This document shows positions 39,501 through 64,000 of a stretch of 64,000 nt of DNA, piece by piece. The stretch is from NCBI GenBank assembly GCA_903813345.2, contig CAIIXF020000011.1:29380166-29444165 (forward strand), written 5' to 3'. The position numbers and the translations under genes were made by a program. This stretch comes from Owenia fusiformis (taxonomy: Eukaryota; Annelida; Polychaeta; Sabellida; Oweniidae). Each line of letters opens with the position of its first letter. The stretch's first letter is position 1. The notes beneath the pieces are model-generated. The model did no database searches, was not told the origin of the DNA, and saw nothing but the letters and a program-made list of their open reading frames with translations.

Positions 39501-41945
39501 CAGAAGTGGATCACCCTATGTTAAAACAGAAACAGTACCACTCATTAAAGTATACTACAGAAGTGGATCACCCTGTATTAAAACAGAAACAGTACCCCTC
39601 ATGGAAGCATACGACAGAAGTGGATCACCCTGTATTAAAATAGAAATAGTACCATTAATAGAAGTATACCATAGAAGTGGATCACAATGTATTAAAACAG
39701 AAACAGTACCACTCATTAAAGTATACTACAGAAGTGGATCACAATTTATTAAAACAGAAACAGTACCACCCATTAAAGTATACTACAGAAGTGGATCACA
39801 ATGTATTAAAACAGAAACAGTACCACCCATTAAAGTATACTACAGAAGTGGATCACCCTGTATTAAAACAGAAACAGTACCACTCATTAAGGTATACTAC
39901 AGAAGTGGATCACCCTGTATTAAAATAGAAATAGTACCATTAATAGAAGTATACCATAGAAGTGGATCACCCTGTATTAAAACAGAAACAGAACCACTCA
40001 TTACGGTATACTGCAGAAGTGGATCACCCTGTATTAAAACAGAAACAGTATCACTCAATAAAGTATACTACAGAACTGGATCACATGTATTAAAACAGAA
40101 ACAGTACCACTCATTAAAGTATACTACAGAACTGGATCACATATATTAAAACAGAAACAGTACCACTCATTAAAGTATACTACAGAAGTGGATCACCCTG
40201 TATTAAAATAGAAACAGTACCATTAATAGAAGTATACCATAGAAGTGGATCACCCTGTATTAAAACAGAAACAGTACCACTCATTAAAGTATACTACAGA
40301 ACTGGATCACATGTATTAAAACAGAAACAGTACCACTCATTAAAGTATACTACAGAAGTGGATCACCCTGTATTAAAATAGAAACAGTACCATTAATAGA
40401 AGTATACCATAGAAGTGGATCACCCTGTATTAAAACAGAAACAGAACCACTCATTACGGTATACTACAGAAGTGGATCACCCTGTATTAAAACAGAAACA
40501 GTATCACTCAATAAAGTATACTACAGAAGTGGATCACCCTGTATTAAAACAGAAACAGTACCACTCATTTAAGTATACTACAGAAGTGGATCACCCTGTA
40601 TTAAAATAGAAACAGTACCATTAATAGAAGTATACCATAGAAGTGGATCACAATGTATTAAAACAGAAACAGTACCACTCATTAAAGTATACTACATAAG
40701 TGGATCACCCTGTAAAATCATGGTAAAATTGTACTTGTATTTGATAAAGATTGATTGCTGGCCATAAACACACTCTAAAAATATGAAAATCAGGGAATCT
40801 ACAAAATGTGAAACTTCACTCGTACATCTTCAATCACTACAACCAAATTTGATTTCTTCTATTGAATTTCTACTCACCAATTGTGGTCCTGGATCACAAA
40901 CAAACACAATCTTTGATGTCGCATTGACCTCTGGGTGCTTCTCACATTTAGTTCCGTGATCATACACCAAGGTCACTCTCCCTGTGGATTTATCAATGTA
41001 AGGAGCATTGTGCACATGGCCAAGACTCTGAAAAGTAAAAATATGTAAATTCTAGTTAAAACTCCATGGGAAAAAAAGTGGATCAGTAGAGTAGTTAAAA
41101 TCATTCAAAACAAGATTCTAAAATATAAAAAAAATATGAAAACCATACATTATTGCTTTAATCAAAAAAATTACAGCTGCGACGACTTTATTGATTTGGA
41201 GGGAATTTTAAAGTGCATGGCCAATATATGCCTTTGATTAAATTAAATTTGAATTTTTTCTTTATTGATCATTGTATTTGTTCTGATTAAATATCTATAG
41301 CAATACCATCTTCAAAACATCAATATAATGTGAATGAAACATATAGTACTTTTTAACCTACCTTAGGGAGCTCCCCTTGTGTAACTTTACATGCTGATGC
41401 TTGAGGTGGGCAGAGAGTACCTTCTATAGGGTTAAGAGGTCTAAAACACAAACAAATACATATGTTCAACAAAAAACGAATATCAAACTGTCTAAGATTT
41501 AATTTGTACAGCAATGCACTTTAATCTATTATTCAGCTATTCAAAATTCAATAAAAATGTCTGTGTAGCAGTTGCTAATTAAATGACAGATTTGATGGGA
41601 ATTAGATACAATCAAGGTATTCTATGGTGTTCCAGGGTCAAAATATCAATAGTTTTAATTGGCATTTACTTTATTAAAGCAGGGATAAATGCCACCTTCA
41701 CTGGGCAACAAACACTGTTTCGGCAATATTCTCCTGAGACGGAGAACACTTATTCTTCTTTAAAATACTTTCATGAGATTTTTTTTCAAACTACCAAATG
41801 AACAGTACCTGCATATGTTAATGTAGTATGCCGCATTATCATTGGTGCCTGAAGTCAAAGATTGCAGTGCAGTGTGGTAACCAGTTGATTTAATTAGTGG
41901 CGAGAGATCAATTGTGGACGTTCCATTCTCTACAACACATCTCAC
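30230..41945 (-). CDS. IGF2R: Cation-independent mannose-6-phosphate receptor homologue, C-terminal 17 exons (partial)
   Basis: Exons from 5': 41945-41809, 41440-41362, 41027-40878, 39299-39123, 38857-38650, 37779-37694, 36004-35847, 35377-35232, 34854-34710, 34242-34177, 33855-33766, 33247-33048, 32346-32237, 31908-31820, 31325-31149, 30806-30746, 30502-30230. They sum to 2352 nt (783 residues plus stop) with matching phases throughout. Four MRH repeats follow one another, each ending in a C-x-(Y/F/V)-x-F-x-W-x-T-x-x-x-C-type strand (NCEYRFQW, ACHVVFRW, ACQFVFTW, ECEYMFDW). They correspond in position to domains 12-15 of the vertebrate receptor. A Gly/Pro linker, a membrane span (about fragment residues 646-667) and a 116-residue tail follow. 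The protein would carry lysosomal enzymes from Golgi to endosome. The IGF2-binding domain 11 and the N-terminus are outside the window. Confidence 0.92.
30746..30806 (-). CDS. IGF2R: Receptor tail exon with YxxPhi signal at its junction
   Basis: This 61-nt exon (phase 2 to 0) is Arg-rich and ends Y-R-Y-S-N. With the leucine opening the next exon it makes Y-S-N-L, a tyrosine sorting signal placed like Y-K-Y-S-K-V in the vertebrate tail. The acceptor is atttttag and the donor is AAT|gtaagt. Confidence 0.85.
31149..31325 (-). CDS. IGF2R: Receptor transmembrane exon
   Basis: A Gly/Pro/Asn-rich stalk is followed by a span of about 22 apolar residues (STIVAIVAVFGSVVFLCLLA and two more) and a basic stop-transfer H-K-K-D-R. 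This gives type I topology: MRH repeats in the lumen, tail in the cytoplasm. Phase is 2 in and 2 out. Confidence 0.9.
31820..33855 (-). CDS. IGF2R: Receptor MRH repeat 4 (last luminal domain)
   Basis: Exons 33855-33766, 33247-33048, 32346-32237 and 31908-31820. Residues at the places used for mannose-6-phosphate binding in active MRH domains are all present: Gln after the cysteine in V-I-C-Q, Arg in D-S-R-V-K-T, and Glu and Tyr in E-C-E-Y. The other three repeats in the window each lack at least two. This repeat corresponds to vertebrate domain 15. Confidence 0.8.
32187..32221. repeat. (AATAT)n microsatellite
   Basis: Seven copies of a 5-bp unit stand in a receptor intron, 16 bp beyond the donor side of exon 32237-32346. 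Confidence 0.9.
34177..34242 (-). CDS. IGF2R: Receptor 66-nt exon, MRH repeat 3 end
   Basis: This exon is hidden in no long open frame. It was found because repeat 3 lacked its tryptophan strand. The acceptor is 'ctttttttccag', the donor GAAAG|gtttgt (a weaker gtttgt donor), and the phase is 2-2. It codes for S-S-G-G-E-A-C-Q-F-V-F-T-W-K-T-S-L-A-C. Skipping keeps frame but would remove two cysteines and the core strand of the repeat. Confidence 0.85.
34478..34639. mobile_element. hAT-type MITE, 8-bp target duplication
   Basis: The left end CAGGGGCGGATCCAG and a diverged right end (ctagatccatta) are flanked by ATGTCTTA on both sides (34470-34477 and 34640-34647). The 162-bp element is GC-rich against its AT-rich surroundings and lies in a receptor intron between 34242 and 34710. 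Confidence 0.75.
35020..35116 (-). mobile_element. Reduced gtggtgacat-ended element, minus orientation
   Basis: 'ggagactataacaacatgtcaccacttgtgatggtgacat' is the complement of the left-end hairpin block of the 23-kb element. The core is missing. Confidence 0.55.
35847..36004 (-). CDS. IGF2R: Receptor exon, MRH repeats 2-3 junction (seed of a tandem array)
   Basis: 158 nt, phase 0 to 2. It codes for R-S-A-C-H-V-V-F-R-W-K-T-A-L-V-C, the last strand of repeat 2, and the start of repeat 3 (F-D-L-S-L-L). Its acceptor and first 98 nt are reproduced nine times in the intron upstream of it. Confidence 0.9.
35907..37233 (-). repeat. Ten-copy array of a receptor exon fragment with its splice acceptor
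   Basis: The unit is about 132 bp (35907 to about 37233). The first copy is the real exon's acceptor half; nine more follow. Every unit keeps 'ttatag|AGATCTGCTTG' and about 100 nt of exon sequence, then breaks off before the exon's end and donor. The units are over 95% alike by eye, most differing at single bases, so the expansion is recent. Confidence 0.92.
37525..37660 (-). mobile_element. Coreless copy of the gtggtgacat-ended element, minus orientation
   Basis: It runs from 'aaggcattaacatg' (complement of the 23-kb element's right edge) through 'gtaaccacctgacat' to the hairpin 'gtcaccatttgtggtggtgac'. It is about 135 bp, consistent with complete loss of the satellite core. Confidence 0.65.
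38040..38250. mobile_element. MITE-like element with CAGTGTTCTCCCC ends
   Basis: CAGTGTTCTCCCCAGG and the complement of TGATCTCCCCAGC stand about 210 bp apart. The flanks ACAGAGTG and ATGGAGTG match at 6 of 8 bases, suggesting a decayed 8-bp hAT duplication. Confidence 0.4.
38650..39299 (-). CDS. IGF2R: Receptor exons of MRH repeat 2
   Basis: Exons 39299-39123 (phase 0-0) and 38857-38650 (0-1) give the end of repeat 1 (N-C-E-Y-R-F-Q-W) and the N-terminal and middle strands of repeat 2 (Y-D-L-S-S-L; F-Y-I-N-V-C; A-G-V-C-H). A His follows the cysteine where sugar-binding domains have Gln, so this repeat probably does not bind mannose-6-phosphate. Confidence 0.88.
39299..40711 (-). repeat. Minisatellite of a receptor splice acceptor, about 24 copies
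   Basis: The unit is about 57 bp. It begins at the acceptor edge of exon 39123-39299. On the minus strand each unit reads a pyrimidine-rich 'ctgttttaatacag|GGTGATCCA', matching the true acceptor and the first nine exon bases, then continues CTTCTGTAG. Because the unit is a multiple of three with no stop on the plus strand, a spurious 220-codon plus-strand frame (39487-40149) runs through it. Confidence 0.93.
40878..41945 (-). CDS. IGF2R: Receptor exons of MRH repeat 1 (partial)
   Basis: Exons 41945-41809 (phase 0-2), 41440-41362 (2-0) and 41027-40878 (0-0). They carry the I-D-L-S-P-L, Y-Y-I-N-I-C, A-C-K and L-V-Y-D-H-G-x-x-C strands of an MRH repeat. Lys after the cysteine and no matching Arg argue against a sugar site. 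The first of these exons has a second copy at 63228-63364. Confidence 0.88.
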
Positions 41946-42660
41946 CTATAGCAGAGAAATACATATTTAGAATTTCAGACCATCTATCTCCTAATGGTCA
42001 TGTACACTTCCTTACTACATTTTGATAGAAAATCCTCTCTTTCCAGGTCCAAGCTGAAACAGAATGGGTTAGTCTTGGACTGAAGATGTTTTTTGTGTTC
42101 CCAAAGCTGTCATAATGTCAATATCACATTTGTTATTCAAGGTACGGTAAATACTATCACAATGGTTCAGCTTGGTATTGGAGACCAGCTTATTTGTAGG
42201 TTGTACACAGAAAATAAGAGTGATCCCTCAGTCATGCAAAGTAAACATTAAAGTTTGAGGTCTGTCATGGAAGATTACACCTCAGTCACATTTGCTTTGT
42301 GCCCTTTGTGGCCATGTGCCCTAACATTTCTATGGCCAACAGCAATTGTAGCAGTCACAAATGCTAGAGTGACTACATAGTGACCACAAATAGTAATCTC
42401 TGTCTTTTCCTTGTTGATTTTCAATCCTGATATCTAACTAAATGTATTTGAATTTGTGGACACTGCCAAAAAACACATGGTTGCTGTAAGGCCTTAATTA
42501 AATAATAAAAATCTAATACAGTTACTATGTGTAATAATTCCGTGGCGACCATACAGGTCAGAAAAATAGGCATATGCTGTAGGGTGACCTTGAGTTAAAT
42601 GCAGATTTCTGTGGTTGTAGCAGGTATTTTCTCAATTGTAGGAAACTTCAGCCGGAATAG

Positions 42661-44385
42661 ACCAACCATTGAGCAAAGCACTGAAGCATTAACAATCTTA
42701 CAATGTCAACAATGAAGGTTAAGTTCAATCATGCAAAGTGAATATTAAAGGTCAGTCAATGAAGGTTAACATTACAGGTCAAGGTCATTCATGCCTGTGC
42801 ATGAGACAAGCCCATGTTTATTCACAGCCTGTCAATGGAAGATGAGATAAAATTATGGCAACAAAACACACAACTTTACAAAATAGTTTTTCAATGTACC
42901 ACTGTATTTCAAGTTTAAGTTTATTTCAAATCAGTTTAAATGTACAGTACTCTGTAATACAATTCCAACATGTTCTATGAATTATATTAGGGATTGGTTG
43001 TGTCATATATGACTGTGCAATGACAGCTAGTCTGAGTATTTAACCTATTGTGTGTCACAAAGATTCCAAACCTAAAGATCACAACTGATTTGCAGACCAG
43101 TTACCATGTTAAGACATTCAGGCCTGTCAACTGTCCCGCAATTTGCGTATTTGTCACGCATTTGCTGAAGAATTTGAAGTCACGCCAGTTATTTTTGCGT
43201 GACAGAAAATGTCACGCAAATACGCATTTTACCTGGTAATTGTCAAGCAAAAATATTTCTGTAGAATTTATAAAAAAGATCGTCTGCACAGCAAAAATAC
43301 GAACGGCGGAAAAAAAATGTACGCATTTCGTTCGGACTTTTCACGCGAATTACGTACTGTAGATTGGGTTAATTTGGCGCCCGCTTTAATTTGGCGAATT
43401 TGGCGAAATTGAAATATTCGCCAATATAAATCTTCGCCAAAATTTAGAATGAATCCCCGGGAATTATCTAGAGTATTTCGTCCAGTGTATTTAGGTCACT
43501 TCCGGTTTAGTTTTTTCCAAAAATATGAAAAAATGTCTCTCATAAATTGGCTCAGAACTGGTCAGTCACTCATTAATACTCAGGGAAAACTAGAAAGGAA
43601 AAGCGAGGTATATTAGCAGCATCAATCGAGGTGCAAAATGTAAAGGATGATCTCACAAAAATGTACAAACGTGGTGAATATCGCCAGTGGTCCTCAAAAG
43701 AAAAAACGAACATACAGCCAAACATGCCCATTTACATGGTAATTCGCAAACAGCACGTAAGTTTAACATTGCATTAACATTTTTTGCATATCCGCCAAAT
43801 TAAATAGCCGCCAATATGCCAAAAATGGCAAAATCGCCAAATTAAGTAGCGCCAAATTAACCCAATCTACAGTATATGTCACGCATTCTGTTCGAAATTT
43901 TTCGTACCTACCCCCCCCCCCCCCAAGACCAACCATTGAGCAAAGCACTGAAGCATTAACAATCTTACAATGTCAACAATGAAGGTTAAGTTCAATCATG
44001 CAAAGTGAATATTAAAGGTCAGTCAATGAAGGTTAACATTACAGGTCAAGGTCATTCATGCCTGTGCATGAGACAAGCCCATGTTTATTCACAGCCTGTC
44101 AATGGAAGATGAGATAAAATTATGGCAACAAAACACACAACTTTACAAAATAGTTTTTCAATGTACCACTGTATTTCAAGTTTAAGTTTATTTCAAATCA
44201 GTTTAAATGTACAGTACTCTGTAATACAATTCCAACATGTTCTATGAATTATATTAGGGATTGGTTGTGTCATATATGACTGTGCAATGACAGCTAGTCT
44301 GAGTATTTAACCTATTGTGTGTCACAAAGATTCCAAACCTAAAGATCACAACTGATTTGCAGACCAGTTACCATGTTAAGACATA
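42661..44385. repeat. 1267-bp tandem duplication
   Basis: The segment starting 'accaaccattgagcaaagc' at 42661 is repeated from 43928, including the left part of a CAGGCCTG MITE in each copy. The first copy ends in the MITE's C run at 43911-43924. A third, untandemised homologue lies at 63434-63910. Confidence 0.9.
43357..43872. mobile_element. TA-flanked MITE nested in another MITE
   Basis: The ends are CTGTAGATTGGGTTAATT and its complement, with TA at 43355-43356 and 43873-43874. The arms go on with several 'ttggcgaa' blocks. The tandem sister copy reads straight through the site (acgtatatgtc at 44624-44634), giving the exact empty site. This is a mariner-type target. A related but distinct element is at 51408-51808. 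Confidence 0.92.
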
Positions 44386-44658
44386 CAGGCCTGTCAACTG
44401 TCCCGCAATTTGCGTATTTGTCACGCATTTGCTGAAGAATTTGAAGTCACGCCAGTTATTTTTGCGTGACAGAAAATGTCACGCAAATACGCATTTTACC
44501 TGGTAATTGTCAAGCAAAAATATTTCTGTAGAATTTATAAAAAAGATCGTCTGCACAGCAAAAATACGAACGGCGGAAAAAAAATGTACGCATTTCGTTC
44601 GGACTTTTCACGCGAATTACGTATATGTCACGCATTCTGTTCGAAATTTTTCGTACCT

Positions 44659-44699
<41 letters not shown>

Positions 44700-44908
44700 T
44701 TGACGGATGTTAGAAACGCGAGCGTAGCGAGCGCGAAAAATTTGAGGTGTTCAAAATTTGGCAAGATGTAATAAAATTTAAACCAAGGTGTTCAAAATTT
44801 GGATCAAGGTGTCCAGATTTGGACCAAGGTGTCCACATTTTGAGGGGAGGTGTTCAACATTTCCAAGTCACTCATGTTAGGTGTTCCCAAGTTGACAGGC
44901 CTGGACAT
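44386..44908. mobile_element. MITE, CAGGCCTG family, with empty site known
   Basis: CAGGCCTGTCAACTGTCC at the left and the complement of CAGGCCTGTCAACTTGGG at the right. The flanks repeat GACATA. The paralogous region at 63901-63915 has 'aagacatatgacc' with one GACATA and no insert. A C run of about 38 bases lies at 44660-44698, followed by an inverted 'gcgagcgtagcgagcgc' palindrome. No transposase is encoded. Confidence 0.9.
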
Positions 44909-45013
44909 ATGACCAGATGAAATCAAACTAGATACAGGTGAGTGAGTTTTTATGTAACACTGATTGTACAGTAGATGCAGCCCTTATAGCACTCTCATGG
45001 CTGAGAGTGTTAT

Positions 45014-46354
45014 TTACTGTTTTCCTGATACTTGTGGTAGATTATTCAAGTAATGCCAGTTTAATGTGATGACAGGATCAGAATGGTCATTCTTGAGCTT
45101 GAGCCATTCATCCAAACACTTCATTATAGCACTGTCTTGGAAAACATCTATTTTATTTGCGAAAATATTTGGTTGACTTGCTAACCATGAGAAATCCTGG
45201 ATTCCATACACACATACTGTTCTAACAAATTTGCCATGACATTTTTGAGGATCCGCCGCCCAAATAACTGCCCTTGACAGCTGGTGATTTTGATTGTGTC
45301 TAACAGTTACGTTCAAACGGCCTGGACCACTGTGGTGACGAATTAAAGTTGACCAAACAGTCTCTTCTGGGGCAGATGTATCATTTAACCAATCAATGAA
45401 TTCCCCTGCTTCTTTGTCATTGAGAATATAATTCACGAATGATCGAGCGAAAACCCCGTATGCACTACCTTTGTACATTTCCCATTTCAAGTAAAATGGG
45501 TCTTTTTTCTCAGAGGTTGGTATCAAAGCATTTCCTTTATCATTTAATTTAAATTTTGAGGCAAACCGCCATACGTGAGTGTGTGGGTATGATTCTATAC
45601 TGCTCTTTCCATTAAGACGTCTTAGAATGTGTACAATTTCACGATTTGTCTTTAGAGGATACTCTTGCCCGACAACATTGAGATAATATTTCCAATCTAC
45701 TGTTGAATTAACTAATTGTTTCATACATTGTAGATCAGACCTTACATGAGTGATACTTGCATAAACCACATGTTCCAGATTTGATGCAATAAAAACGTTA
45801 TCGAAACATCTCACAACACTTTTAACTGCATTATGGAAGCTTTCCGGTGAATTCATGTCAATGTAAATGCAGTAGATATTTTGACGAGCATAAACCTGTC
45901 GAAATAGCTTTTCAAACTGTAAGACTGATCTGTGTATTTTAAGTGCATAAGCGATTGGAAACTTGATTTCATCCTTGTGTGAATAAGAGTTAGAATATAA
46001 AACATCTTTGTAGGCTTTACAATCTTTTGTCATATTAAGAACCATACTGTTAAAGTCAGTTTCCTCAATATTTCCAAGATCAGCATTTGCAGTTTTCACA
46101 ATTTTATCAGCTATATCAATAGCTGTTTTATTACCCTGCAGTATTCCCATACAGTTCAATCCATCTGTTCTGGACTTAACAATATTGCCATATGTCCTTA
46201 CTGCCACTAATTCTAATTTGTCATCATTTTCATCGATGAGATTTTTTGTGAGAAACATCCAACTGTCACCTTCAAGATTGGTTAAAACACAAAGACCTAG
46301 TATGCATAGAATCAACGCCAATATTTTCCATTTTTTCTTCATGATGATTTGCAT
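45014..46354 (-). CDS. Core-2/I-branching-type beta-1,6-N-acetylglucosaminyltransferase (GT14)
   Basis: An intronless ORF of 446 residues, the usual length of GCNT enzymes. It is a type II Golgi membrane protein: basic M-K-K-K-W-K, then an apolar anchor at residues 9-25, a stem, and the Branch domain from about 132 to 420. Family landmarks are FPIAYALKIHRSVLQFEKL (132-150), Y-Y-L-N-V-V-G-Q-E-Y-P-L (223-234), GSAYGVFARSFVNYI (296-310), A-P-E-E-T-V-W-S-T-L (328-337, one of the glutamates fitting the catalytic base position) and R-x-V-C-V-Y-G (378-384). Five N-glycosylation sequons are visible. It should transfer GlcNAc from UDP-GlcNAc in beta-1,6 linkage to O-glycan or polylactosamine acceptors. 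The exact acceptor cannot be read. It lies between the two copies of a receptor exon. Confidence 0.93.
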   Translation of the reverse strand: MQIIMKKKWKILALILCILGLCVLTNLEGDSWMFLTKNLIDENDDKLELVAVRTYGNIVKSRTDGLNCMGILQGNKTAIDIADKIVKTANADLGNIEETDFNSMVLNMTKDCKAYKDVLYSNSYSHKDEIKFPIAYALKIHRSVLQFEKLFRQVYARQNIYCIYIDMNSPESFHNAVKSVVRCFDNVFIASNLEHVVYASITHVRSDLQCMKQLVNSTVDWKYYLNVVGQEYPLKTNREIVHILRRLNGKSSIESYPHTHVWRFASKFKLNDKGNALIPTSEKKDPFYLKWEMYKGSAYGVFARSFVNYILNDKEAGEFIDWLNDTSAPEETVWSTLIRHHSGPGRLNVTVRHNQNHQLSRAVIWAADPQKCHGKFVRTVCVYGIQDFSWLASQPNIFANKIDVFQDSAIMKCLDEWLKLKNDHSDPVITLNWHYLNNLPQVSGKQ

Positions 46355-46760
46355 TAAGTTTTACAATTGTGCTAAAAATCATCTGCAATAACTCATGTGA
46401 ATAAGCCTTTACATACAATAGTATACTTAACTAAATATAGTGATACAAACAAATGCAACGGCTGGTTGCTTAGCGACGAAACGATGAGAACAGAAAAATA
46501 CTAGGAGGTCAGTTATGACCAAATAAAGTAGGACAAAAGATGCTATCGACTATATAAACTGGATAAAACAACGCATAGACAGCTATAGAAGACTTTTAAA
46601 CAAAATTCAGACGAAATCTAAACAGCAAACGAACGAAATAAGACGGTAAAGTGACCCGGGAGAAAATGACAATCAAACCGGAAGTAGTCGATTGTTTGTA
46701 AACATCCGGTTACTGGAAAAATCCAAACAAACAATCTATCCCAGAAACTGCGTGCAACAA
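46355..46760. promoter_or_regulatory. Putative bidirectional promoter
   Basis: About 400 bp separates the divergent start codons at 46354 (minus) and 46761 (plus). It contains ACCGGAAGT at 46677-46685, a consensus ETS/GABP site common in bidirectional promoters, and 'catccggtt' at 46704-46712. No TATA box was seen. Confidence 0.4.
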
Positions 46761-49700
46761 ATGGAAGAAACAAAACAAACAAGCTTGGATAATTACATAA
46801 AACGAAAAAGAAATCAGATTGAAGACGAGGAGTACACAGACGCAATTCAAGAACTGAAACCCAAGGAAAAACGAGAGAAAAAAGAAACGAAGTGTCTGGA
46901 GTACCTTAAAATTTAAGGCTCTTTAGCCAAAATGCTAAAGAGCCTTAAAATTTAAGGCTATTTAGCTGTGAACATAGTGTTTTGGCTAGAGAGCCTTTGT
47001 GTTTATAATCCGTGTTCATATTGTTTTTATTGAAGTTTTCGTCATCTAAACAATAAAACAACACTCTCGAAAGTTTTTCAACCCAGAATGCCACTTAAAA
47101 AGTTCACACATGTATATCACTATTGAGTTGAAAAAATATATCACAATCACGGAAAAACACTCTGGTATAGTGGTTAGAGTGCTCGCTAACCACTTCTGCG
47201 GCGTGGGTTCGATTCCCGGTCGGAGGATTTTTTATTTTGAATAACAAGCCGGAAGTTTGTTCTCTGAGGTCCGAAAATTATGTACACAATTTTTTTTAGA
47301 ATTCTTGGGCTTGCTCCATCGCTCAATCATCAATGTTTAATGAAATTAATCACTTGTATTGGCTTTGCTATAGTCACGAGAATACCAGAATACAGGGAAT
47401 CCCATTTTAAGATGGCAAAAAGTATGATGAAGACCTGGGCATGAAAAAGGATCTTGTTTCTTCTAGATCAGCACATCTTGACGCAGTTTATCGTGAATGC
47501 AACGACATCAGCCCAGGGACATCACAGAATTCACTTCCAAATCTTAATCTATTGCCCATTAGATTTCAATGCTGATTTTAGAATTTTTCACGTGACGAGA
47601 TATTTTTGCATAATATTTTCCTCACAAGTGAAAATTTAAGCACATCAATGAGAGAGCACAAAGAAAATTTACAGTACAAGAGGTGAACTGTCGAGGAAAC
47701 ACCGGGAGGAAACATTGGCTTATGCAACACAACAACAACATTTTTATCCTAGCCTCCAATCCATCAATAAATGTCTATACATCAAAATCTTTACTAAACG
47801 GACGTTGCGATTTATAGTGGATAAAATGGTAAAAATAACATTTTTCTGGCTATATACGTGATTTCCTGTTCTAACACCTTCTCTGGTGAATACATTTTCG
47901 ATATACTAGTATGCATGAACGGTCCATTCAAAATCGATGTTTGAACTTTTAAAAAGCCAAATTTAGACTGAGGATTGAAAAGGTTCTTTTATTTGGGTGT
48001 TACTAAATACCACCTAGGTGTCCCACACCTAGGTGCCCCTTTCCAGGTGTCCCATTTCAGGTGGCGGCGTGGGGCTTGGATATTGGTTGATTAGACTTTG
48101 ATATAAGTCAAATAATAGTACTAGAGTATGAATGGAGTTGTACTTTACTTGATGAGGTAAGAATAAAAGTAGTTTTGTGACATTTTAGAGAGAAAAAAGT
48201 ATTTTTTTCGAGATTTTTTTCTGACGCCATGTTGCTTTCGGAAAATAAAAATTTCTCAACTTTTTATCAGCATTTCCAACACTGGTCTTTGTAATAACAA
48301 AACCAAAAGTTGTTGTATGTGTTCATCGTTATATCATTTATATGAGATGTTTACAACAAGTCTAAAGATTCAACTGTCTTGTCAAAGATGACCCAGGACC
48401 CTATCCTACAGATTTTCTCTATCAAAAGCCAGATATCAGTTCCTGGTCTAGGTCAGTTAGACTAATACTGTATCCTCTAGTCTGATATTGGATATAGACT
48501 AGGCAGCCAGTGTATGTAAGTCAGAGATCCTGCTGTCAAGTCAGTTCAACGTTACCCTGCGCGCAGAGTGTAGTTATAATATAAACTACACTCTGCCTAG
48601 TATCTGAGACTAACATAAATGTTAGTCTCAGCTAGTATAGACTACATGTATACTTCAGTTTAGCAACCCCGCCCCGAAGATTGGTGCCTGTGACAGCCCG
48701 GGTAATAAATAATTTCGGGTTTACGAAAAACACTGACCGCCGACCACCGACCAGTCACTCTCCACAGTTGGGTACATGTGGTCGGTGGTCGGCTGACGGT
48801 CTTTTTCATAAAGATGAAAAAATGCAAAATTACATTTAGAAGTAAAACTAAAACTGGGAATCCAATGACTATAGTACCTTTACTAGGTCGTGATTAGTTA
48901 GAAGACCAATTTCATCCTGTTTAGTCACTTTGGAAAAAAACGCACGTAACATTGCATTAAGTTCATTCATATGAAACGCAATAACAAAAACACACAAACA
49001 TCGTCGATGTTGACGTCGTAATGTTATGTTTGATTTCTCAGTTGTCAAACGTCAACTGGTAAAAACTACATTTGATATGACAAAAAAAGCTTTCTAATGG
49101 TGTACTGAAATGGCAAGTCACTTTTAATCCCGATAAGAGAACGCATGTAATATCGTGTTCAGTATTCAGTAGGCTATGACGATAACAAATCATTTTTGTT
49201 TCGAAATTGTTAAATTTCAGTAAAAAATTAGGATAGATTCCCGTAGAAACGAAAGGTTGGTTAATGATAGGTTAGGACCTAAGGCAGGACAATTAATTGA
49301 GAGGAGACGGTCATGCCCAATTTGTTTGCTTGCCATTCGTTGCAAGGTACAAAATCGGTAAAAACCGTTGCCTAGTCCCAACGATTGACATTCAAAATCA
49401 AATTATTAATATTTTAAGGCTACAAATATGTTCGGTCTTTTACATGATATGGTCGGTCTTTTACACATTTTCTTCAAACCCTGTTTTGAGGCTACCAGTG
49501 GGAAACATCGACCGGTCGGTGGTCGGTGGGGTCGGTCTTTTTCGTAAACCCAATAATTTCAAATCTACCATGCTGATCCTTTCTCAACCAATCAGCAAAG
49601 TGGAAGGAACATACGCAAAATACGTGCTCATTAACTGTGCGGGGATGTCAGAGGAAATGACCATATAGAAAGTCGTCCGTATTTCGACAATGAACTCTGA

Positions 49701-53068: not shown

Positions 53069-53685
53069 TGCTGCCGTAACATCTTGCTCCATCTGGCCTT
53101 GGCACAGGGTGTATGAGATATATACAACCAACTATGACTACCACCAGCAATACCCTGTTGCCATCTCTCATAGTCCTTATTCCAGGTGTGGACGGTCTGA
53201 TGTAGAAACAGTTGTACCTTGATCTGCAGATAAAACTTAGTGAGAATCTAGCTGCATCTGATCAACCATAACCACTCGGATTGTTAATATATGAAGTGAA
53301 CTACTTTATCAATAATGAGTTAAAGTCTGGATTACAACAGAGATTATTATGAATGTACTACGTCATGGATTGTATTCTGCATTGAGGATTACATGTATGT
53401 AGTTCAAACTACATCCTGAGTTATATACTGCATTATGGATCATATACTTCAAGCTGACTGTATCGGCAATTATGACTGACTCTGTCTGACTACCTCCTCC
53501 TCCTCCAACATATAGATTAGGGAGAATGACAATCATTAGTCCCTGTAATGAACTGTAGAGCTAAGCTTGAAGTTTGCATAATTTCAAACTTGAACTACTA
53601 TGGTATCTATAGTTATAAAAAGAGGATCTACTGCTATTGATGCATCATGTTGTTACTTTGTGAAATAATTGACTTGTAGCTTTGT

Positions 53686-54040
53686 TATGTCACCACCAAA
53701 AAGTGGTGACATACTCCATTTTTTGACAGGGGTTGGTGGCTGACGGTTGGAAATCAGCATCTGTAACAAATTCTTACAACTTCCAATAACTTAACAAATA
53801 CTGTTTAGACCGACTTCAATTTTTTTCAAAATCATCTAAAAGTTTTCAGAAGTTCAAATCTGACTTTACATTTATGTTTGACCTTGACTGACCCTCTCAA
53901 GTCAAAAAAGATCAAAAAGGGTATTTTTTCAACTTGCTTCAAATTGGCCAATTTCTTTTTTCAAAATCATCTATAAGTTCTCAAATGTTCAAATCTGACC
54001 ATAGATTTGACCTTCAATTACAATTACTAAGCCTGGTTTA
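53686..54040 (+). mobile_element. 5' part of a gtggtgacat-ended element
   Basis: Left hairpin gtcaccac-caaaaa-gtggtgac, the GC-richer block, then about one and a half satellite units ('aagttcaaatctgac'). The right end is missing. Confidence 0.7.
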
Positions 54041-54082
54041 ATCTTTAACATCTAATTATTATGTACATGAAACTATGTTGTT

Positions 54083-54687
54083 TAACCTTACTCACTTCGA
54101 GAGCCATGTTAGATTTTGAAACTTATGGCTCTCAAACGGAGAAGTGAACAGCTGATCAATAGTGACCTTTGAAATTGAATTAAGTCGATCCGCGGCTTAC
54201 TTTTGGTCTCTAACTGTGTCTTACATCAGTATCATCAATCCGTGTAAGTATTGGAGCGCTGGAGTACTTCTTTTTCGATCAAGACTTGTAAATTGTTCAT
54301 CGAGTTAAGGTTTTACAGACCTATTTCCAATATGGCGGTTTGCTAGGTGCGAGATACGCAACGAACGAAATGAATTTTGAGAATTAGTTAGGTTCGGACA
54401 ACCTCCGGAGATTTACGAAAATGTCCGAGCAGAAACCGCCATATTGGAATTTGGCAGTAAAACGATTCACTCGACTAACAATTACAAGTCTTGATCGAAA
54501 AAGAAGTACTCAAGCGCTCCAATACTTACACGGATTGATGATACTGATGTAAGACACAGTTAGAGACCAAAAGTAAGCCGCGGATCGACTTAATTCGATT
54601 TCAAAGGTCACGATCATTGAGCTGTCCAAATGCTCCGTGGGAAAGCTATTATATCAAAATCCAAATAGCTTTCGCAGGAAGTAAGTT
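54083..54687. mobile_element. Long foldback element
   Basis: The arms are roughly 190-210 bp. The inner 150 bp ('gaattaagtcgatccgcggc' to 'cttgtaa') is almost perfectly inverted at 54470-54610. The outer parts (gagagccatgttagattttg against gaaagctatttggattttg) are more diverged. No duplication was identified at the edges. Confidence 0.75.
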
Positions 54688-55504
54688 TAAATATTAAATA
54701 TTCATTGTTTTATTTCATTATTTTTTATCATTTAAAAATACACGTGGAATGTAGAAAACAAGTTGTCCTAATAAAGTTCATTTATACACACAAAAAGATT
54801 TTGAGTCAATATCGTTTTTAGGAAGGAGTAATGGTGGTTTCGGCCAACAAACCACTGCATGCCACTTAAAATTTTGTTGAATCCCTCCCTGTGAATTTCA
54901 TCTTATAGTGCACTTGATCAGTTTTTAACATCCAGGGTGTCCTAAAATATATGCACTCTGTTTATGTTGTTCTGATTTGTTTTCCAATATTTATAATATT
55001 TTGTCCATTCTCCATACTTAATACATGATGAACAATAGACTAGATGCGAGTAGAAATACTTTGATTTATGTCATTAAATATTCATAATTCAGTCAAAATT
55101 CAGTCTTAAAATCTACATGTTAAAACACTTTTAGAAATATGGTTTTTAAAATTGCTTATCAACTTTGAGGATTTAATCTATGGGAAAAATGTGATTTCTA
55201 GTTCAGGGAGATTCCCCATAGGCCCCATGTTATAAAACCACAAAAGTCTCACAACCTCTGATTTTTCAATTTCAATCTAACAGATGTTTTTTTTAATATT
55301 TGAAGTGAGTAAAAGATGTGGCATTGTCCAATTTTGAGAACTCTATAATATAGGCCTAGTATCTAATATAATATAATAGCAAGGACTTTATTTAGATAAA
55401 TGTACTATGCTGTGTAAGGTGAGGCAATATTGCCTCATCTCTGGCCTCACCTATGATATAGATGATACTAGCAACACTTATGTTGACATAATTCAAACAG
55501 GGTA

Positions 55505-55690
55505 GGTCTGAAATTAGTCTGAATCCCAATGGTCTGAATCCCATTGGTCTGAATCCCAGTCGTCCGAATCGCAATTGCTGAATCCCAATCATCCAAATCC
55601 AAATTGTCTGAAACCCATATCCAATCCGAATCATCCGAGGCCAAATTCCATCGGTCCAAATCTGAATCCAGTGGGATTTAGTCGATTGCG
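55505..55690. repeat. 'ggtctgaatccca' short tandem repeat
   Basis: About 12 imperfect 12-15-bp copies. The minus-strand frames through them are repeat artefacts. Confidence 0.7.
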
Positions 55691-55699
55691 ATTTGGACA

Positions 55700-57121
55700 A
55701 ATGGTGTGTAGTCTTTCTAACAGTATATATATATATTTTGAACTATGATTATTATAGTCACCATTCAGGCCTCATTATCTGATTATTCATGTCATGTGGA
55801 TATACATGTATTGGTATCCATTGGCAAAATGCAATTTGGTGCTATGGGTCTTGGCTGAGACGATCATAAAATTGGTAAGCTTGTGTTACTGTGTTATAAT
55901 GAACAATCGCAACACAAATGTGCTATTTCTATACAGAATAAGAGTGTAATATACACAGTGACTGACATAATCGAATCGGAAATGACTCTAGTCTACAGTA
56001 TGTGACTACAAATTTATAAATCAGAAGTTGATATATTATGAGTCTTTATGACCGTCGATTGACCTCATTATGCGACATAATTTCGCAAAAAGTACATGAC
56101 TTTTGTGGATAATATTTCGGTATTTTGAGCAAATTTATTAGCATATCGTCGTTAAACATTAGGCCGTAAACATTATGTATTTCGACCATACACGACCACT
56201 CGTAAACCCAAGTGGCGGCCATTTTTTGTCGAAGCCCACTTCTTTAACACTTTTTTCATGCTATACAATGTCAGAGTCGTATTTTATCAACCAACGGAAT
56301 ATTTACAAAGCCATTTAAGTTACTGTAAAGTTTCAAAGATTATCCTTCACTAAAACATCGTTAATCAGTAGTCTAAAAATCCAGGTGCCCTAGGGGACAC
56401 CTAGGTGTCCCCAGGTGGGGGCACCTAGGTGCGGGACACCTAGGTGGTATTTAGTATTACCCCAAAGCTGGGCCTATAGCTAGTCTACCATGTCAGGGAC
56501 CCTTTTTCGATTCACAATGCTATATTTTCCGTATTTTTTCTAATCAACTTTCGAACATACCAAGTTATGCTTACATCGCCACTCGCCAGCCCATGCTCAA
56601 TAATTCTAATCTTTCACGTAATTTAACTCAGACCAAACGTACTTTTCCGATCACAGTTAGAGTTTTTCAAAGAAATCCATTTCCAAGAATCTAGCGTGCG
56701 ATGGTAACAATCTCGACTTTAAAAAAAACAACTCCAAAGCGCTTTTAGATGGGATACCCGGCATGGACTTGCACGTGGCGATAATATGACGATAATATGA
56801 CGTCTATGATAATGAAACTAAAAATAATATCTTAGTAGTAAAACAAAATATGAGGTCCACATATATCTAAAGTTGATCTAAGCCTAGAAAACGCCGGAGT
56901 ACACAAACGCGAACTTTAAAAAATAATTAATTAAGAACTACTATCCTTAAATAGACGTCCGAAATATTTGGGTCAAACGGTCTATCTAGTATCATTTTCA
57001 GCATTCTCATGCATTTTTTCTATACTTTTTTAGAAACCATTAAGGTTTCAATGTTTCACAAAAAACAAAAAACAGATCAATATATTATGTTAAAAGGGGG
57101 CCAAAAGCATTTGAAAAATAA
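55700..57121. other. Spacer before the retrotransposon
   Basis: No gene seen. The inverted partner of the 'cacctaggtgtccc' repeat lies at 56385-56465. The retrotransposon's 5' untranslated region, and any ORF1, should lie in the last part, but no boundary, target duplication or ORF1 could be found. Confidence 0.4.
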
Positions 57122-60100
57122 GCCAGCGCATCAATTAGGATAGGCACAATAAATGTGAGAGGTCTTCAGAATGATATCAAAAGGAAAAAACTATTTTTAT
57201 ATGCAAAAGAAAATTATGATGTAGCTTTCTTGCAAGAGACACACAGTGGGAAAGACCATATACTCAGATGGAAAGACGAAGCTGACATGGAAGCTTTCTT
57301 CTCAGACTACTCTACAACGTCAGCTGGCGTTGGCATCCTCATCTCACCAAGAGCGGAAATAAAGATTGAAAACTCAGAAATAGACAAAGAGGGAAGGTTC
57401 ATCATCTTACAATGCAAAATACAAGACATCCCTATAACACTTGTAAACATATATGGACATAACAACGACACTGCGAATAACGCACTTTTTGAGAAACTTC
57501 ACAAAAAACTAATGGAACAACCAAATTACAAACTAATACTCGGTGGCGATTTTAATGTAACAATAAACCCAATATTAGACAAGATTGGAGGCCAAGAGCG
57601 AGAGACTCAAATAAAAACAAGGAAGAGAATTAAGGACATCGCAGAAGAACAAGACTTGTGTGACATATGGAGACAACGAAACAAGGACAAAAAAGAATTT
57701 ACATGGGAAAACCCAGCAGAAACTATAAAATCAAGACTTGATTACTTTCTAATCTCAAACCACTTAAACTCGGCGGTTGAAAAAATTAAAATTGACAAAT
57801 GTCCACCAATCAAGATAACAGATCACCACATTGTCGAAATGAATATACGTCTCTCAGACAATAAAAGAGGCCCGGGACTGTGGAAATTCAACAACCGTAT
57901 GCTATCTGACAAAGACTATTTAACACATATCAAAACTATAATAAGACAAACATCAGAGGAAAACAAAGCCATGGACCCGCAACAATTATGGGAATACATA
58001 AAGTACATTATAAAAACAGAAACAATGAAATTCTCAAGAGAGAAGAAAAAAAGAACAGACGCCTACATAATAAAAAAAATCAAAAACCTGCAAGAATTGC
58101 AAAGAAAGATAGATGATAGCCCACAAAACTTAAAACAAGAGCTGACAAGAGAAAGAAACACAATCCAAGAAGAATTGGACCAGATAAAAGAAGAGAAGGC
58201 AAAAGGAGCCATACTGAGGTCAAAAGTAAGATGGAACGAAGAAGGAGAACGACACAGTAGCTACTTCCTAAAATTAGAGAAAAGAAACTATGCTAATAAA
58301 ACCATGACAAAGTTAATGACAGAAGAGAACAAAACAATAACAAGCCAAAAGGATATAGCTACGGAGCAAGTGAAATTTTATAAAAAACTATATACTTCAC
58401 AAAAACCTAACTTCACTGAGGACGCCAGAAATAAGTTCTTTCCCAAGGAAAAATCAATAAAATCTCTAGATATAGACATGAAAAACAAATGTGAAGGGAA
58501 AATAACAGAAACAGAGATAAAGGACCAAATCAAAAATCTCAAAAGAAATAAGTCACCGGGGTCAGATGGCCTCACAAATGAATTTTACAAAGCCCTGGTA
58601 GATGAAGTAATAACCTTACTTGTAAACAGCTTAAATACAGCATATCAAAACGGGGAATTATCAAACGAACAAAGAAGAGGTATCATAACCCTCCTTCCAA
58701 AGAAGGACAGAGATCATAAACAGCTAAAAAATTGGAGGCCAATCTCCTTACTAAACTCCGACTACAAAATAGCCACAAAATGTATAGCAGAAAGGATCAA
58801 GCAAACTTTAAAACACATCATACAAGAAGACCAAACTGGGTTTATAAAAGGACGATACATAGGGGAAAACATCCGCTTAATCATAGACACAATGGAACAT
58901 CTAAAGAAGACAAACCAACCTGGGATACTAGCTTTCATTGACTTTGAAAAAGCCTTCGATACTCTAGAATGGTCTTTTATAGAAAAAACACTTTCATACT
59001 TTGGATTTGGCCCCTCAATAATAAAATGGATTCAAACTTTTTACAAATCAATAGAAAGTTGCATCATGAACAATGGCTACTCATCAAACTACTTTTCTCT
59101 AGAAAGAGGAGTGAGGCAAGGGTGCCCACTTAGCCCTTACCTTTTCATAATTTGTGTTGAAATTCTAGGAACAAATATTCGCGTTAACAAGGACATAGAA
59201 GGAGTGAACATACCAGGAGAACAAGCAAAGATATCGCAATATGCGGATGACACATGCCTCTTGCTAAAAAACACCCAATCACTAAAAAAAGCACTAGATA
59301 TCTTTAAAACTTTCGGAGCTTGTTCCGGACTTAACATCAATGTCACCAAAACAGAAATAGCAACAATTGGAAGCAACGTAGATCAAGACAAAACGGAAGA
59401 AGACTGTCACACCTTGAATCTTGCCATCAAGAGAGATGAAATAAATGTTCTGGGAATTACTATACCGCTGGACGGGAGAGATATTAACGATCTGAATTTT
59501 CCAAAAGCCATTCTGAGAATAAATAACATTATAAAAAGTTGGACCCCAAGGAACATAACCATTATAGGAAAGATAGCTGTTACAAAGGCCCTGCTTATTG
59601 CACAGATTACATACATGTCCTCCATACTCAACCCACCAGAAAACACTATCAAGGAAATTGAAGATATCCTCTTTAAATTCATTTGGAGCAATAAACCAGA
59701 CAAAATTAAAAGAAGGGTCCTTATGAACTCATATGAAGAGGGAGGCCTCGAAATGATTCATATTAAAACATATATACGCAACTTAAACCTTAAATGGATC
59801 AAGAAACTAATGGATGAAAACTGTAAAGGGAAATGGAAAAACATATGGAAAAATTATATCAAGAACTTAAATGAAGAAAAAATATGGGAGTATAATCTCA
59901 AAGAAGACAACAAAGAGATAAATAGGCTCCAACTGAATTCCTTAATGCACTGCTACAAAAACTGGTGTAACCTAAAGTTTGAATCAACAAGACAAATAAA
60001 ATGCCCCAAAGAATCCAACATTAACAATGACTGTATAAAATCAGGTGGACAGGTGATGAATTTCAAAACATGGCAAGAACATGGTATTCACACCATTCAA

Positions 60101-60880
60101 GATATATTCGATAAAGATAAACCAATGTCAAGAGAACAGATCATCAGAAAGTACAACTTTCAAACCATATGTTTTCTGGATGTCATAAAAGTGACATCAG
60201 CAATACCAAAAGAATGGAAAGATCGAATGAAGGACAAAAGTACACAAGACTCGGAGCCAAGCATTAAGGAATGGTTCACAAAGTCACCAAACAAGATGAC
60301 ATACAAATACCTACTAAAAAAGAACAATATACTAAACCCAGCAATAACGACACAGGAGAAGTGGGAAGAAAAGCTACAAAACCGGAATATAACCTGGAAA
60401 AAAATATACCTAAACACAAGGAAACTAACAGTTAACATCAGACATATTTGTTTCCAATACAAGCTCATATCGAGAATCATATACTTCAACAAAGGCTTAT
60501 TTGAAATGAAGATACCCAACGTATCTTCCCCAATCTGCGATCTGTGTAAGGAGGAACTGGACACGATAGAACATGGATTATATGACTGCGTAGTTGTAAA
60601 AGAATTCCTAAAACAATGCAGCAGTATATTGAAAGAAGATATCCCGAAACGAGATAGTTTTCTTCTTGGAACAAACAGCCAACCTGAAGACATCTTACTG
60701 CACCTGAAACAAAAAACATATATCTACAAGTGTAAAATGAAAAAGAACCGCCCCAACATGACAGAATGGAGAAACTATGCAACAAATGATGAACTTATAG
60801 AAAGTACATGCGCAAAAAATAAAACACATGACATTCTATGGACAAAACTCAGGATGTATACAAAAAATGAAGAAAACTGA
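57122..60880 (+). CDS. Non-LTR retrotransposon ORF2: endonuclease plus reverse transcriptase (L1/Tx1 type)
   Basis: The frame opens after a stop at 57119 and runs without a break to TGA at 60878-60880; numbering here is from GTG 57155 (1241 codons). The APE-type endonuclease (about 1-240) has F-L-Q-E-T-H, G-G-D-F-N-V, S-R-L-D-Y-F and T-D-H-H. The reverse transcriptase (about 440-760) has K-S-P-G-S-D-G, N-W-R-P-I-S-L-L, F-I-D-F-E-K-A-F-D (near 594), G-V-R-Q-G-C-P-L-S-P and the catalytic Y-A-D-D (near 695). A C-x2-C-x8-H-x5-C zinc knuckle lies near 1127. No in-frame ATG occurs before the endonuclease; the first is well inside it. Either the start lies in a lost 5' part or translation uses another mechanism. 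Intactness suggests a young copy. Confidence 0.93.
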   Translation, partial: ASASIRIGTINVRGLQNDIKRKKLFLYAKENYDVAFLQETHSGKDHILRWKDEADMEAFFSDYSTTSAGVGILISPRAEIKIENSEIDKEGRFIILQCKIQDIPITLVNIYGHNNDTANNALFEKLHKKLMEQPNYKLILGGDFNVTINPILDKIGGQERETQIKTRKRIKDIAEEQDLCDIWRQRNKDKKEFTWENPAETIKSRLDYFLISNHLNSAVEKIKIDKCPPIKITDHHIVEMNIRLSDNKRGPGLWKFNNRMLSDKDYLTHIKTIIRQTSEENKAMDPQQLWEYIKYIIKTETMKFSREKKKRTDAYIIKKIKNLQELQRKIDDSPQNLKQELTRERNTIQEELDQIKEEKAKGAILRSKVRWNEEGERHSSYFLKLEKRNYANKTMTKLMTEENKTITSQKDIATEQVKFYKKLYTSQKPNFTEDARNKFFPKEKSIKSLDIDMKNKCEGKITETEIKDQIKNLKRNKSPGSDGLTNEFYKALVDEVITLLVNSLNTAYQNGELSNEQRRGIITLLPKKDRDHKQLKNWRPISLLNSDYKIATKCIAERIKQTLKHIIQEDQTGFIKGRYIGENIRLIIDTMEHLKKTNQPGILAFIDFEKAFDTLEWSFIEKTLSYFGFGPSIIKWIQTFYKSIESCIMNNGYSSNYFSLERGVRQGCPLSPYLFIICVEILGTNIRVNKDIEGVNIPGEQAKISQYADDTCLLLKNTQSLKKALDIFKTFGACSGLNINVTKTEIATIGSNVDQDKTEEDCHTLNLAIKRDEINVLGITIPLDGRDINDLNFPKAILRINNIIKSWTPRNITIIGKIAVTKALLIAQITYMSSILNPPENTIKEIEDILFKFIWSNKPDKIKRRVLMNSYEEGGLEMIHIKTYIRNLNLKWIKKLMDENCKGKWKNIWKNYIKNLNEEKIWEYNLKEDNKEINRLQLNSLMHCYKNWCNLKFESTRQIKCPKESNINNDCIKSGGQVMNFKTWQEHGIHTIQDIFDKDKPMSREQIIRKYNFQTICFLDVIKVTSAIPKEWKDRMKDKSTQDSEPSIKEWFTKSPNKMTYKYLLKKNNILNPAITTQEKWEEKLQNRNITWKKIYLNTRKLTVNIRHICFQYKLISRIIYFNKGLFEMKIPNVSSPICDLCKEELDTIEHGLYDCVVVKEFLKQCSSILKEDIPKRDSFLLGTNSQPEDILLHLKQKTYIYKCKMKKNRPNMTEWRNYATNDELIESTCAKNKTHDILWTKLRMYTKNEEN

Positions 60881-61026
60881 AGACCACTCACATTTTAAGC
60901 TATTTTTATTTTTCATATAATACTGGTGCCCCCGTACCATTCATAATCAATAAGTATTATGTATTTATATAAGTGACTAAGAAATCAAATATACTGTAAA
61001 CAAAATGTTTTACTGTGAATAAATAA

Positions 61027-61064
<38 letters not shown>
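60881..61064 (+). mobile_element. Retrotransposon 3' end and poly(A) tail
   Basis: About 150 bp of 3' untranslated sequence ends 'aataaataaatatatt' (polyadenylation-like) and then 31 A residues at 61034-61064. The flank beginning 'tgcaaccgtctg' was not found as a duplicate upstream. Confidence 0.9.
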
Positions 61065-61066
<2 letters not shown>

Positions 61067-61867
61067 CAACCGTCTGATTTTAGAATAAGTTTTTAATTAT
61101 GGTGGAATCTTTATGAATTCTTGTTAATAGCAACAAACCCCTCATCCTTAAGAACAATTTTTTGAATAGGTCGATAGAATGCACTAAAATTAATCAATTT
61201 ATGTTTACATTATCAATGGCATTTAAAAAGTCCCGAAACATATTATATTTTATGTAAAATATTGATTGGCCAGTGTTACTTATTACTGTAATGGCCAATT
61301 ACTTAACTGAATGTACAGTGTTTCTTATTCATGAATATTTAATTCATAAATGTATATCCAGCTTTAAATAATGGAACCCATGTGTTTTAATGGACTGTTA
61401 ATTCAACAATTTTACATACAAAAACAAGATAGTTTTGCATTTGCAGAAATAATTTTTCAATTTCAATGAAAAGAAAATTTTTTAGGTCACAACTCTTTTT
61501 GGTGTATGACTGACCCAATCAAATAAGAAAGTATAAAATAAAAAATTTATAATTTTTCCATTTTCCAAAGGTATATCACATTTTTGGGAAAATAAAAGAA
61601 TAAGTAGTACAAATTAGTTACTCATATTGATTCATATCGATACATTTTTATTGCCAGCTAACAGGGTGACCACACAAAATTGAAAAATAAGAATTCAGAG
61701 ATTCCAGAAAATCTACAGAGTCTAACAAAAGAAAAAAATAACTCTTCAATCAAATTTTCATCAATCTGAAAGATGTCAAAATGTTGCAATATATGAAGGC
61801 GATATGTCCAATATCATTTTAGTTTTAGTAAAAAAGCTCTAATACAAGGCATATGTCTTGCAACTTG
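61065..61867. other. Spacer, nothing recognised
   Basis: AT-rich sequence with no exon or repeat boundary that I can support. Confidence 0.5.
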
Positions 61868-62690
61868 TATACAAGGCATTAACATGCTAAATGTCACCAC
61901 CTAGTTGCGCACAATATTTTTAGTTCAATCTTAGTCAGATCTGAATTTCGGAGAGCTCTGTAGATGATTTTGAAAAAATGGTCAATTTGAAACAACTTGA
62001 AATAAAGACCTTTTTTACCCTGAGAATGTCATTGAAGGTGAAATCTCAAATCTAAAGTCAGATTTGAACTTCTGAAAAGTTGTAGATGATTTTGAAAAAA
62101 AGTGGTCAATTTGGAGCAAGTCGCAAAAAGGCCTTTTTGACCTTGAGAAGTTCATTGAAGGTCAATTGTTTTTGACCTTGAGAATGTCATTGAAGGTCAA
62201 ATCTATAGTCAGATTTGAACTTTTGAGAACTTGAAGATGATTTTGAAAAAATGGTCAATTTGAAGCAAGTTGGAAAAAAACCTTTTTTTACCACAAGAAG
62301 GTCATTGAAGGTTGAATCTTTAATCTAAAAGTCAGATTTGAACTTCTCATAACTTGCAGATGATTTTGAAAAAAGAATTTGGTCATTTTGAAGCAAGTTG
62401 AAAAAGACCTTTTTGACCTTTAATAACCTTTTTTACCTTAAAAAGGTCATTGAAGGTCAAATCCTAATTGTCAAGTCAGATTTGAACTCTGAAAACTTGT
62501 AGATGATTTTGAAAGAAACTGAAGTCAGTCTAAACAGTATTTGTTAAGTTATTGGAAGTTTTAAGAAATTGTTACAGATGCCAACCACCAATCGCCGATT
62601 GCCAACCGCCGATCACCGCTTTTTGGTGGTGACATAAGAAAATGGAGACCATAAAAATATGTCACCACTTTGTGACATAATAAAAACCCA
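61868..62690 (-). mobile_element. Full gtggtgacat-ended repeat-cored element, minus orientation
   Basis: It starts 'aaggcattaacatg...gtcaccacct', runs through about five diverged satellite units ('aagtcagatttgaac', 'gaaggtcaaatc') and ends with the GC-richer block and hairpin 'gtcaccac-tt-tgtgac'. The units are more diverged than in the 23-kb copy, so it is older or not homogenised. Confidence 0.75.
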
Positions 62691-63227
62691 AAATGCGTTA
62701 CATTACATGAAATCAATAGTCAATTAGCTATTTAACCCTACTATCACACCAAACTAGTTCTCACTACGTTCTCGAAAACGGGCTTCAACTGTGTAAGAAC
62801 GGACTGGACCTACTAAGAACCGTTTAGGATCTATTTACAAACTTCATTGAACGTACTCGAACAGGTAGGTCCTCTAGAACTTAGACAATGCTCAAAATGT
62901 CAAAATATCAAACTGTCTAAGATTTAATTTGTACAGCAACTTTAATCTATTATTCAGCTATTCAAAATTCAGTAAAAATGTCTGTGTAGCAGTTGCTAAT
63001 TAAATGACAGATTTGATGGGAATTAGATACAATCAAGGTCTTCTAGGGTGTTCCAGGGTCAAAATATCAATAGTTTTAATTGGCATTTACTTTATTAAAG
63101 CAGGGATAAATGCCACCTTCACTGGGCAACAAACACTGTTTCGGCAATATTCTCCTGAGACGGAGAACACTTATTCTTCTTTAAAATACTTTCATGAGAT
63201 TTTTTCCATCTAACAAACAAACAGTAC

Positions 63228-63364
63228 CTGCATATATTAATGTAATATGCAGCATTATCATTGGTGCCTGAAGTCAAAGATTGCAGTGCAGTGTGGTAAC
63301 CAGTTGATTTTATCAGTGGCGAGAGATCAATTGTGGACGTTCCATTCTCTACGACACATCTTAC
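63228..63364 (-). CDS. IGF2R: Duplicate receptor exon, same protein as 41809-41945
   Basis: 137 nt, phase 0 to 2, with intact acceptor (gctatag) and donor (gtactg). It differs from the 41.8-kb copy at seven bases, all third codon positions and all silent. The two cannot be spliced one after the other: the phase-2 end joined to the other copy's phase-0 start reads AGG TGA. They must be alternatives, alleles, or one is unused. Confidence 0.85.
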
Positions 63365-63973
63365 CTATAGCAGAGAAATTCATATTGTTGTTCCACTAAA
63401 TTTGGTAGCAGTTTTAATTTAGCTGCTGGGGACTAACCATTGAGCAAAGCACTGAAGCATTAACATTAGAGGTTAGGGACAATCTTACAATGTCAACAAT
63501 AAAGGTTAAGTTCACCCATGCAAAGTGAATATTAGGTCAATAAAGGTCAGCTATTGAAGGTTACAGGTCAAGGTCATTCATGCCTGTGCATGAGGCAAGC
63601 CCATGTTTATTCACAGCCTGTCAATGGAAGATGAGATAAAATTATGGCAACAAAACACACAACTTTACAAAATAGTTTTTAAATGGTACCACTGTATTTC
63701 AAGTTTAAGTTTATTTCAAATCAGTTTAAATGTACAGTACTCTGTAATACAATTCCTACGTGTTCTATGAATTATATTAGGGATTGGTTGTGTCATATAT
63801 GACTGTGCAATGACAGCTACTCTGAGTATTTAACCCATTGTGTCTCACAAAGATTCCAAACCTACTGATCACACTGATTTGCAAACCAGTTACCATGTTA
63901 AATTAAGACATATGACCAGATGAAATCAAACTAGATGCAGGTCTATGGGTGAGTTTTTATGTAACACTGATTC

Positions 63974-64000
63974 AGGCCTGTCAACTTGGGAACACCTAAC
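63974..64000 (-). mobile_element. Start of another CAGGCCTG-family MITE
   Basis: CAGGCCTGTCAACTTGGG and 'aacacctaac' at the window edge match the right end of the 44386-44908 element in the opposite orientation. It is inserted after 'cactgatt', where the other copy at 44970 has no insert. Confidence 0.8.

Follow-up and report, generated by a model that had tools for sequence, protein, structure and literature searches.

The stretch of 64,000 nucleotides analysed here (the window; C11:29380166-29444165, in a searched genome of 498 Mb from the annelid Owenia fusiformis) carries on its minus strand the 3' part of a receptor gene which, judged by its sequence, is a homologue of CI-MPR/IGF2R, that is, an invertebrate lysosomal-sorting receptor of the mannose-6-phosphate receptor type. 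One coding exon of this gene is present twice, and a gene resembling Core-2/I-branching GlcNAc-transferases lies nested in the receptor intron beside each copy. The data suggest that the exon and its neighbouring gene were probably doubled together by a real head-to-tail tandem duplication of ~6.7 kb within the receptor gene, in which the use of a single exon copy is enforced by the reading frame.

The two exon copies, both on the minus strand, lie at 41809..41945 (copy A, VRCVVENGTSTIDLSPLIKSTGYHTALQSLTSGTNDNAAYYINIC) and 63228..63364 (copy B). Each is 137 nt long, enters in phase 0, leaves in phase 2 and is bounded by AG and GT, as a check of the minus strand revealed; copy A begins with GTGAGA and copy B with GTAAGA. 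The assignment of copy A was based on sequence comparison, in silico splicing and the Pfam CIMR family. The initial annotation had described two exons at these positions coding for the same 45 residues and differing by seven synonymous third-position changes, and direct comparison bears this out: the coordinates and translations agree, and 7/7 mismatches fall at third codon positions. The next receptor exon, exon D (41362..41440), serves as the common acceptor for either copy, and is followed by exon E (40878..41027, phase 0); both are on the minus strand.

Concerning the identity of the receptor, exon A joined to exon D matches the Pfam CIMR repeat (PF00878) with an E value of 2.2e-8, and the 18 matches to this repeat in the genome (14 above the cut-off) are nearly all situated in the window, where further repeats occur 3' at 32-39 kb, and on C140, which is unplaced and has a length of exactly 25,000 bp. 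The order of the repeats is that of the vertebrate receptor, since three tested segments are colinear with the bovine CI-MPR (6um1): the first exons of C140 correspond to residues 129-221, the region of exons A and B to residues 1582-1832 around repeats 11/12, and the window exons further 3' to residues 1992-2137. Therefore, C140 and C11 carry a single receptor gene between them, with its 5' part on the former and its 3' part on the latter. The 3' end (30233..31339, minus strand) contains an open reading frame (ORF) with a transmembrane segment (31148-31339) and an ORF for the cytoplasmic tail (30233-30532) ending in YHDDSDDDMLL; the hydrophobic stretch and the C-terminal DDSDDDMLL were recognised by eye in separate ORFs, so that the exon joins are putative. 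The gene resembles CI-MPR/IGF2R in its repeat order and, putatively, in its transmembrane-segment ORF and its tail of acidic-dileucine type, and differs from it in that one exon around repeats 11/12 is doubled and each copy has a nested glycosyltransferase gene next to it. C140 was also considered as a second receptor allele, which was rejected because its exons are not those of the window but a 5' set, and because it continues C11:67500 without interruption.

The duplicated block goes well beyond the exon. When the self-comparison was carried on past the end of the window, it showed that positions 41479-46459 of copy A, comprising exon, intron and glycosyltransferase gene, match 62904-65996 of copy B, and that positions 61058-62735, beyond a long interspersed nuclear element (LINE), parallel the right flank of B. 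Unit A thus extends over 41479..62735 (21.3 kb, ~6.7 kb without the LINE), and unit B over 62904..64000 in the window, on to C11 window-coordinate 67500, and then over C140:25000-24787 in reverse complement. As the match between the right part of A and the right flank of B is unbroken across C11:67500|C140:25000, there is strong sequence evidence for placing C140 at the 500-N gap to the right of B (window-coordinates 67501-68000). The 25,000-bp piece, which holds the 5' part and most of the receptor gene, was apparently removed from the chromosome beside the window and left unplaced. In practical terms, the assembly has the gene in two separate places, chromosome C11 and the 25-kb piece, and the point at which to rejoin them is given here.

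The initial annotation was right that the exon is duplicated, while the copied block proved to continue past the end of the window and to hold a second gene. Its statement that the flanking introns have gained and lost hundreds of bases also holds, since the copies differ by 691 bp immediately before the exons and A alone holds a LINE of ~14.6 kb, nested elements included; the adjoining 300 bp of intron, on the other hand, are nearly identical (~3 substitutions).

This LINE (about 46460..61061, plus strand) has a poly-A tail and a target-site repeat, AAATGCAAC, and B retains the empty site. A second copy elsewhere in the genome, 99.6-100% identical, reveals a nested interruption at 46888-56462. 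The LINE and its nested elements would have been inserted later, into copy A, and they account for most of the 21-kb spacing between the exons. The view of this gap as unique intron was wrong, as it consists mostly of transposable elements with many genomic copies. Within the LINE, 47994-56462 is an element of ~8.5 kb, several copies of which (90-98% identical) occur on C1, C11 and elsewhere.

The two units meet at 62736..62900. The 168 bp between the end of A at 62735 and the start of B at 62904 consist of an abundant dispersed repeat, represented by its first 165 bp, with its intact end CCCTACTATCACACC following TAA/TTA, and of CAA, which fuses to the start of B. Ten other copies of this repeat run on past position 165, and the junction copy is therefore truncated at the fusion. 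The outer flanks differ: exon D begins 39 bp to the left of A and is absent to the left of B, and the region to the right of B is an intron on C140, without the junction repeat, which reads as an empty site. The sequence of A and B contains no N. An independent insertion of B at a distance was rejected, because removal of the LINE leaves the two units adjacent, and the idea that two junction-repeat copies recombined on a single chromosome is not supported, as the outer flanks lack the repeat.

With the upstream exon U on C140, which ends in ...ACEKR at base 23922 in phase 0, the consequences of the duplication could be followed by in silico splicing in four ways, joining U to none, A, B or both and then to D and E. 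U-A-D-E and U-B-D-E gave the identical open protein. With both copies spliced in, the reading frame ended in ...YINICR* (AGG TGA), a stop at codon 135 of the tested stretch, in agreement with the initial annotation, which had predicted this stop and the use of a single copy per transcript; with no copy spliced in, it ended in ...ACEKRTS*, a stop after two codons, at codon 91. As the exon of 137 nt is not a multiple of three and leads from phase 0 to phase 2, a receptor-coding mRNA requires exactly one exon copy. In the transcript, B is the first copy to follow U, at a distance of 5.2 kb provided that C140 is rejoined, and A lies a further 21 kb on. If neighbouring exons were spliced in order by default, B would be joined to A, and therefore the B-A product must be avoided or removed, if the gene works on this chromosome. 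Both exon copies could presumably be spliced, and transcripts with two copies or none might be cleared by nonsense-mediated decay.

Tandem exon duplication with mutually exclusive splicing has been reviewed (PMC9013439, PMC9741552). As in such pairs, A and B are copies of a single exon arranged head to tail within a gene, homologous neighbours with compatible phases, and the use of both breaks the frame, both and none alike giving a non-functional product. Known pairs usually encode different residues; here the products are identical, the duplicated unit covers several kb and holds another gene, and mutually exclusive splicing is a prediction from the sequence. A literature search found, among the papers covered, no close precedent for duplicated exons that combine identical products with exclusion by frame. 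If real, this would be a young, still-identical exon pair with exclusion by reading frame only, and hence a snapshot of a possible origin of mutually exclusive exons before divergence.

The initial annotation had left the choice between a natural pair and allelic copies placed in tandem by the assembly. Our analysis favours a real tandem duplication, since the junction is gap-free and without homology, lies where the repeat is truncated, and is surrounded by outer flanks that are unique and different. Alleles stacked by an assembler should continue each other on at least one side, and these do not: leaving the repeat aside, the ends 41479/62904 and 62735/C140:24787 do not match. A piecewise search of the genome with the CIMR family, moreover, found no second allelic set of CIMR exons elsewhere. 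A simple allelic duplication was not retained as the first choice, because on neither flank does one copy carry on as an allele of the other and because the two are joined within a repeat. We consider it improbable that A and B are two alleles of one locus put in tandem by the assembler or by a chimeric read, in which case the silent differences would be ordinary heterozygosity and would pose no splicing problem. The divergence of 2-7% between A and B would suit such an artefact, as it is within the range of heterozygous marine invertebrates; the LINE and the repeat differ in presence between A and B as they would between haplotypes, and the locus was visibly damaged by scaffolding, with the 25,000-bp piece cut out beside B. 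Against this, the join lies within a repeat, with both sides lacking homology at that point, and no N separates the copies; the right flank of A and the left flank of B are not allele-like, as the position of exon D illustrates, and a 165-bp repeat is probably too short to drive a long-read overlap.

Several features of the divergence weigh against the tandem duplication preferred here. At silent positions the exon is more diverged (7/~40 sites) than the glycosyltransferase gene (15/358; p 0.003), and also more so than the adjoining 300 bp of intron (~3 changes; p 2e-5), and the divergence of the unit is patchy, with noncoding blocks at 1-7% (p 5e-6), these being small counts with sites taken as independent. 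The exon and its immediate borders (41785-41960 against 63206-63380) diverge more, at silent or intronic positions, than do the 300 bp of intron next to them. Conversion between the copies or mixed haplotype ancestry could be the source of this unevenness. Likewise, the junction repeat is present at the right end of A and missing at the right end of B, which a simple duplication on one chromosome does not predict, and therefore haplotype exchange, excision of the repeat or a later deletion must be added. This absence suggests that the copies came from two haplotypes by unequal exchange, or that the repeat was lost, or that a later deletion occurred; mixed haplotypes are also the content expected of a misassembly.

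A two-haplotype origin would mean that some of the silent changes may already have separated two alleles when the duplication took place, and this bears on selection. The neutral chance that 7/7 changes are silent is about 1-3e-4, and if half of the seven changes fell on a dead copy it is P ~0.01-0.03. The all-silent pattern indicates constraint on both exon lineages, perhaps partly as alleles before the duplication. The initial proposal of selection on both copies is thus partly supported, with the reservation that the divergence may partly predate the duplication.

The nested gene adds a further consideration. Copy A of the glycosyltransferase gene (45014..46354, minus strand) is an intact single exon of 446 aa within the receptor intron, and copy B (window-coordinates 64561-65901) is likewise an intact 446-aa ORF. 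The ORF matches PF02485 over the whole domain (E 6.9e-43), as expected for the Core-2/I-branching beta-1,6-GlcNAc-transferase family, and differs from the family in being nested in a receptor intron and duplicated along with it. The two copies show 12 amino-acid differences, with nonsynonymous (dN) and synonymous (dS) divergences of 0.012 and 0.054 and dN/dS ~0.23. The duplication would have copied this gene together with the adjoining receptor exon, and it is conceivable, though less likely than not, that the glycosyltransferase is the gene that matters, one exon copy being a passenger rarely or never spliced while the other makes all receptor mRNA. The intact and constrained nested gene forms the larger share of the unit's coding sequence, and upstream of the exons only 22 bp are common to A and B, the branch-point region beyond being completely different, so that acceptor strength may differ. 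A passenger, however, would not be expected to retain an open frame and splice sites as both copies do, nor to lack replacement changes (0/7; P ~0.01-0.03), an argument which fails if the divergence predates the duplication.

The first bases of both exons form a 5' splice motif, which reads AG|GTAAGA in B and AG|GTGAGA in A. Joining to the previous exon re-creates donors that scored 4.8 (U|B), 5.3 (U|A) and 7.6 bits (B|A), against 1.75 bits for the exon's own CAG|GTACTG, in a simple generic matrix. In exons subject to recursive splicing (RS-exons), the re-created donor competes with the exon's own donor, and the exon junction complex represses such sites (PMC6224609); by the matrix scores, the re-created sites here are competitive. 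It is therefore worth considering, as an unlikely reading, that recursive splicing sorts the copies by repairing double-inclusion transcripts: re-splicing at U|B would drop B and keep A, re-splicing at B|A would drop A and keep B, and either would yield the correct mRNA. The donor scores and an anatomy like that of RS-exons speak for this prediction, but the scores come from a generic matrix, the motif also encodes V-R codons and may be incidental, the same process would equally skip both copies and lead to a stop, and repression by the exon junction complex is normal at such sites. Somewhat more doubtful still is the extension that recursive splicing acts as a copy-number proofreader, re-splicing double inclusion to one copy so that a frame-breaking duplication could persist with a single protein. 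The exons share with RS-exons (PMC6224609, PMC8605326) a 5' splice motif at the exon start, re-created at the junction and stronger than the own donor; they differ in that the case is a sequence prediction and that the exon is doubled, so that re-splicing would choose between equivalent copies. If real, the locus would be a case in nature on which to test whether an exon duplication that breaks the frame can be rescued by recursive splicing.

Further repeats were observed in and around the duplicated units. An element of 520 bp, which has terminal inverted repeats of 14 bp (CAGGCCTGTCAACT), is oriented oppositely in A and B (44386-44903 against 64492-63973), as an in-place flip. Copy A contains an internal 698-bp repeat (42659-43356 and 43926-44623) with one mismatch, much younger than the split between A and B. 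A dispersed element with an internal tandem array occurs at 23151-25004, 61927-62518 and, beyond the window, 66949-67500; it recurs across several introns and on C140, and it flanks copy B on either side. To the right of the gap, from window-coordinate 68001 onward, the minus strand (L021:4001-4100) resembles a thrombospondin type-1 repeat, which probably belongs to another gene.

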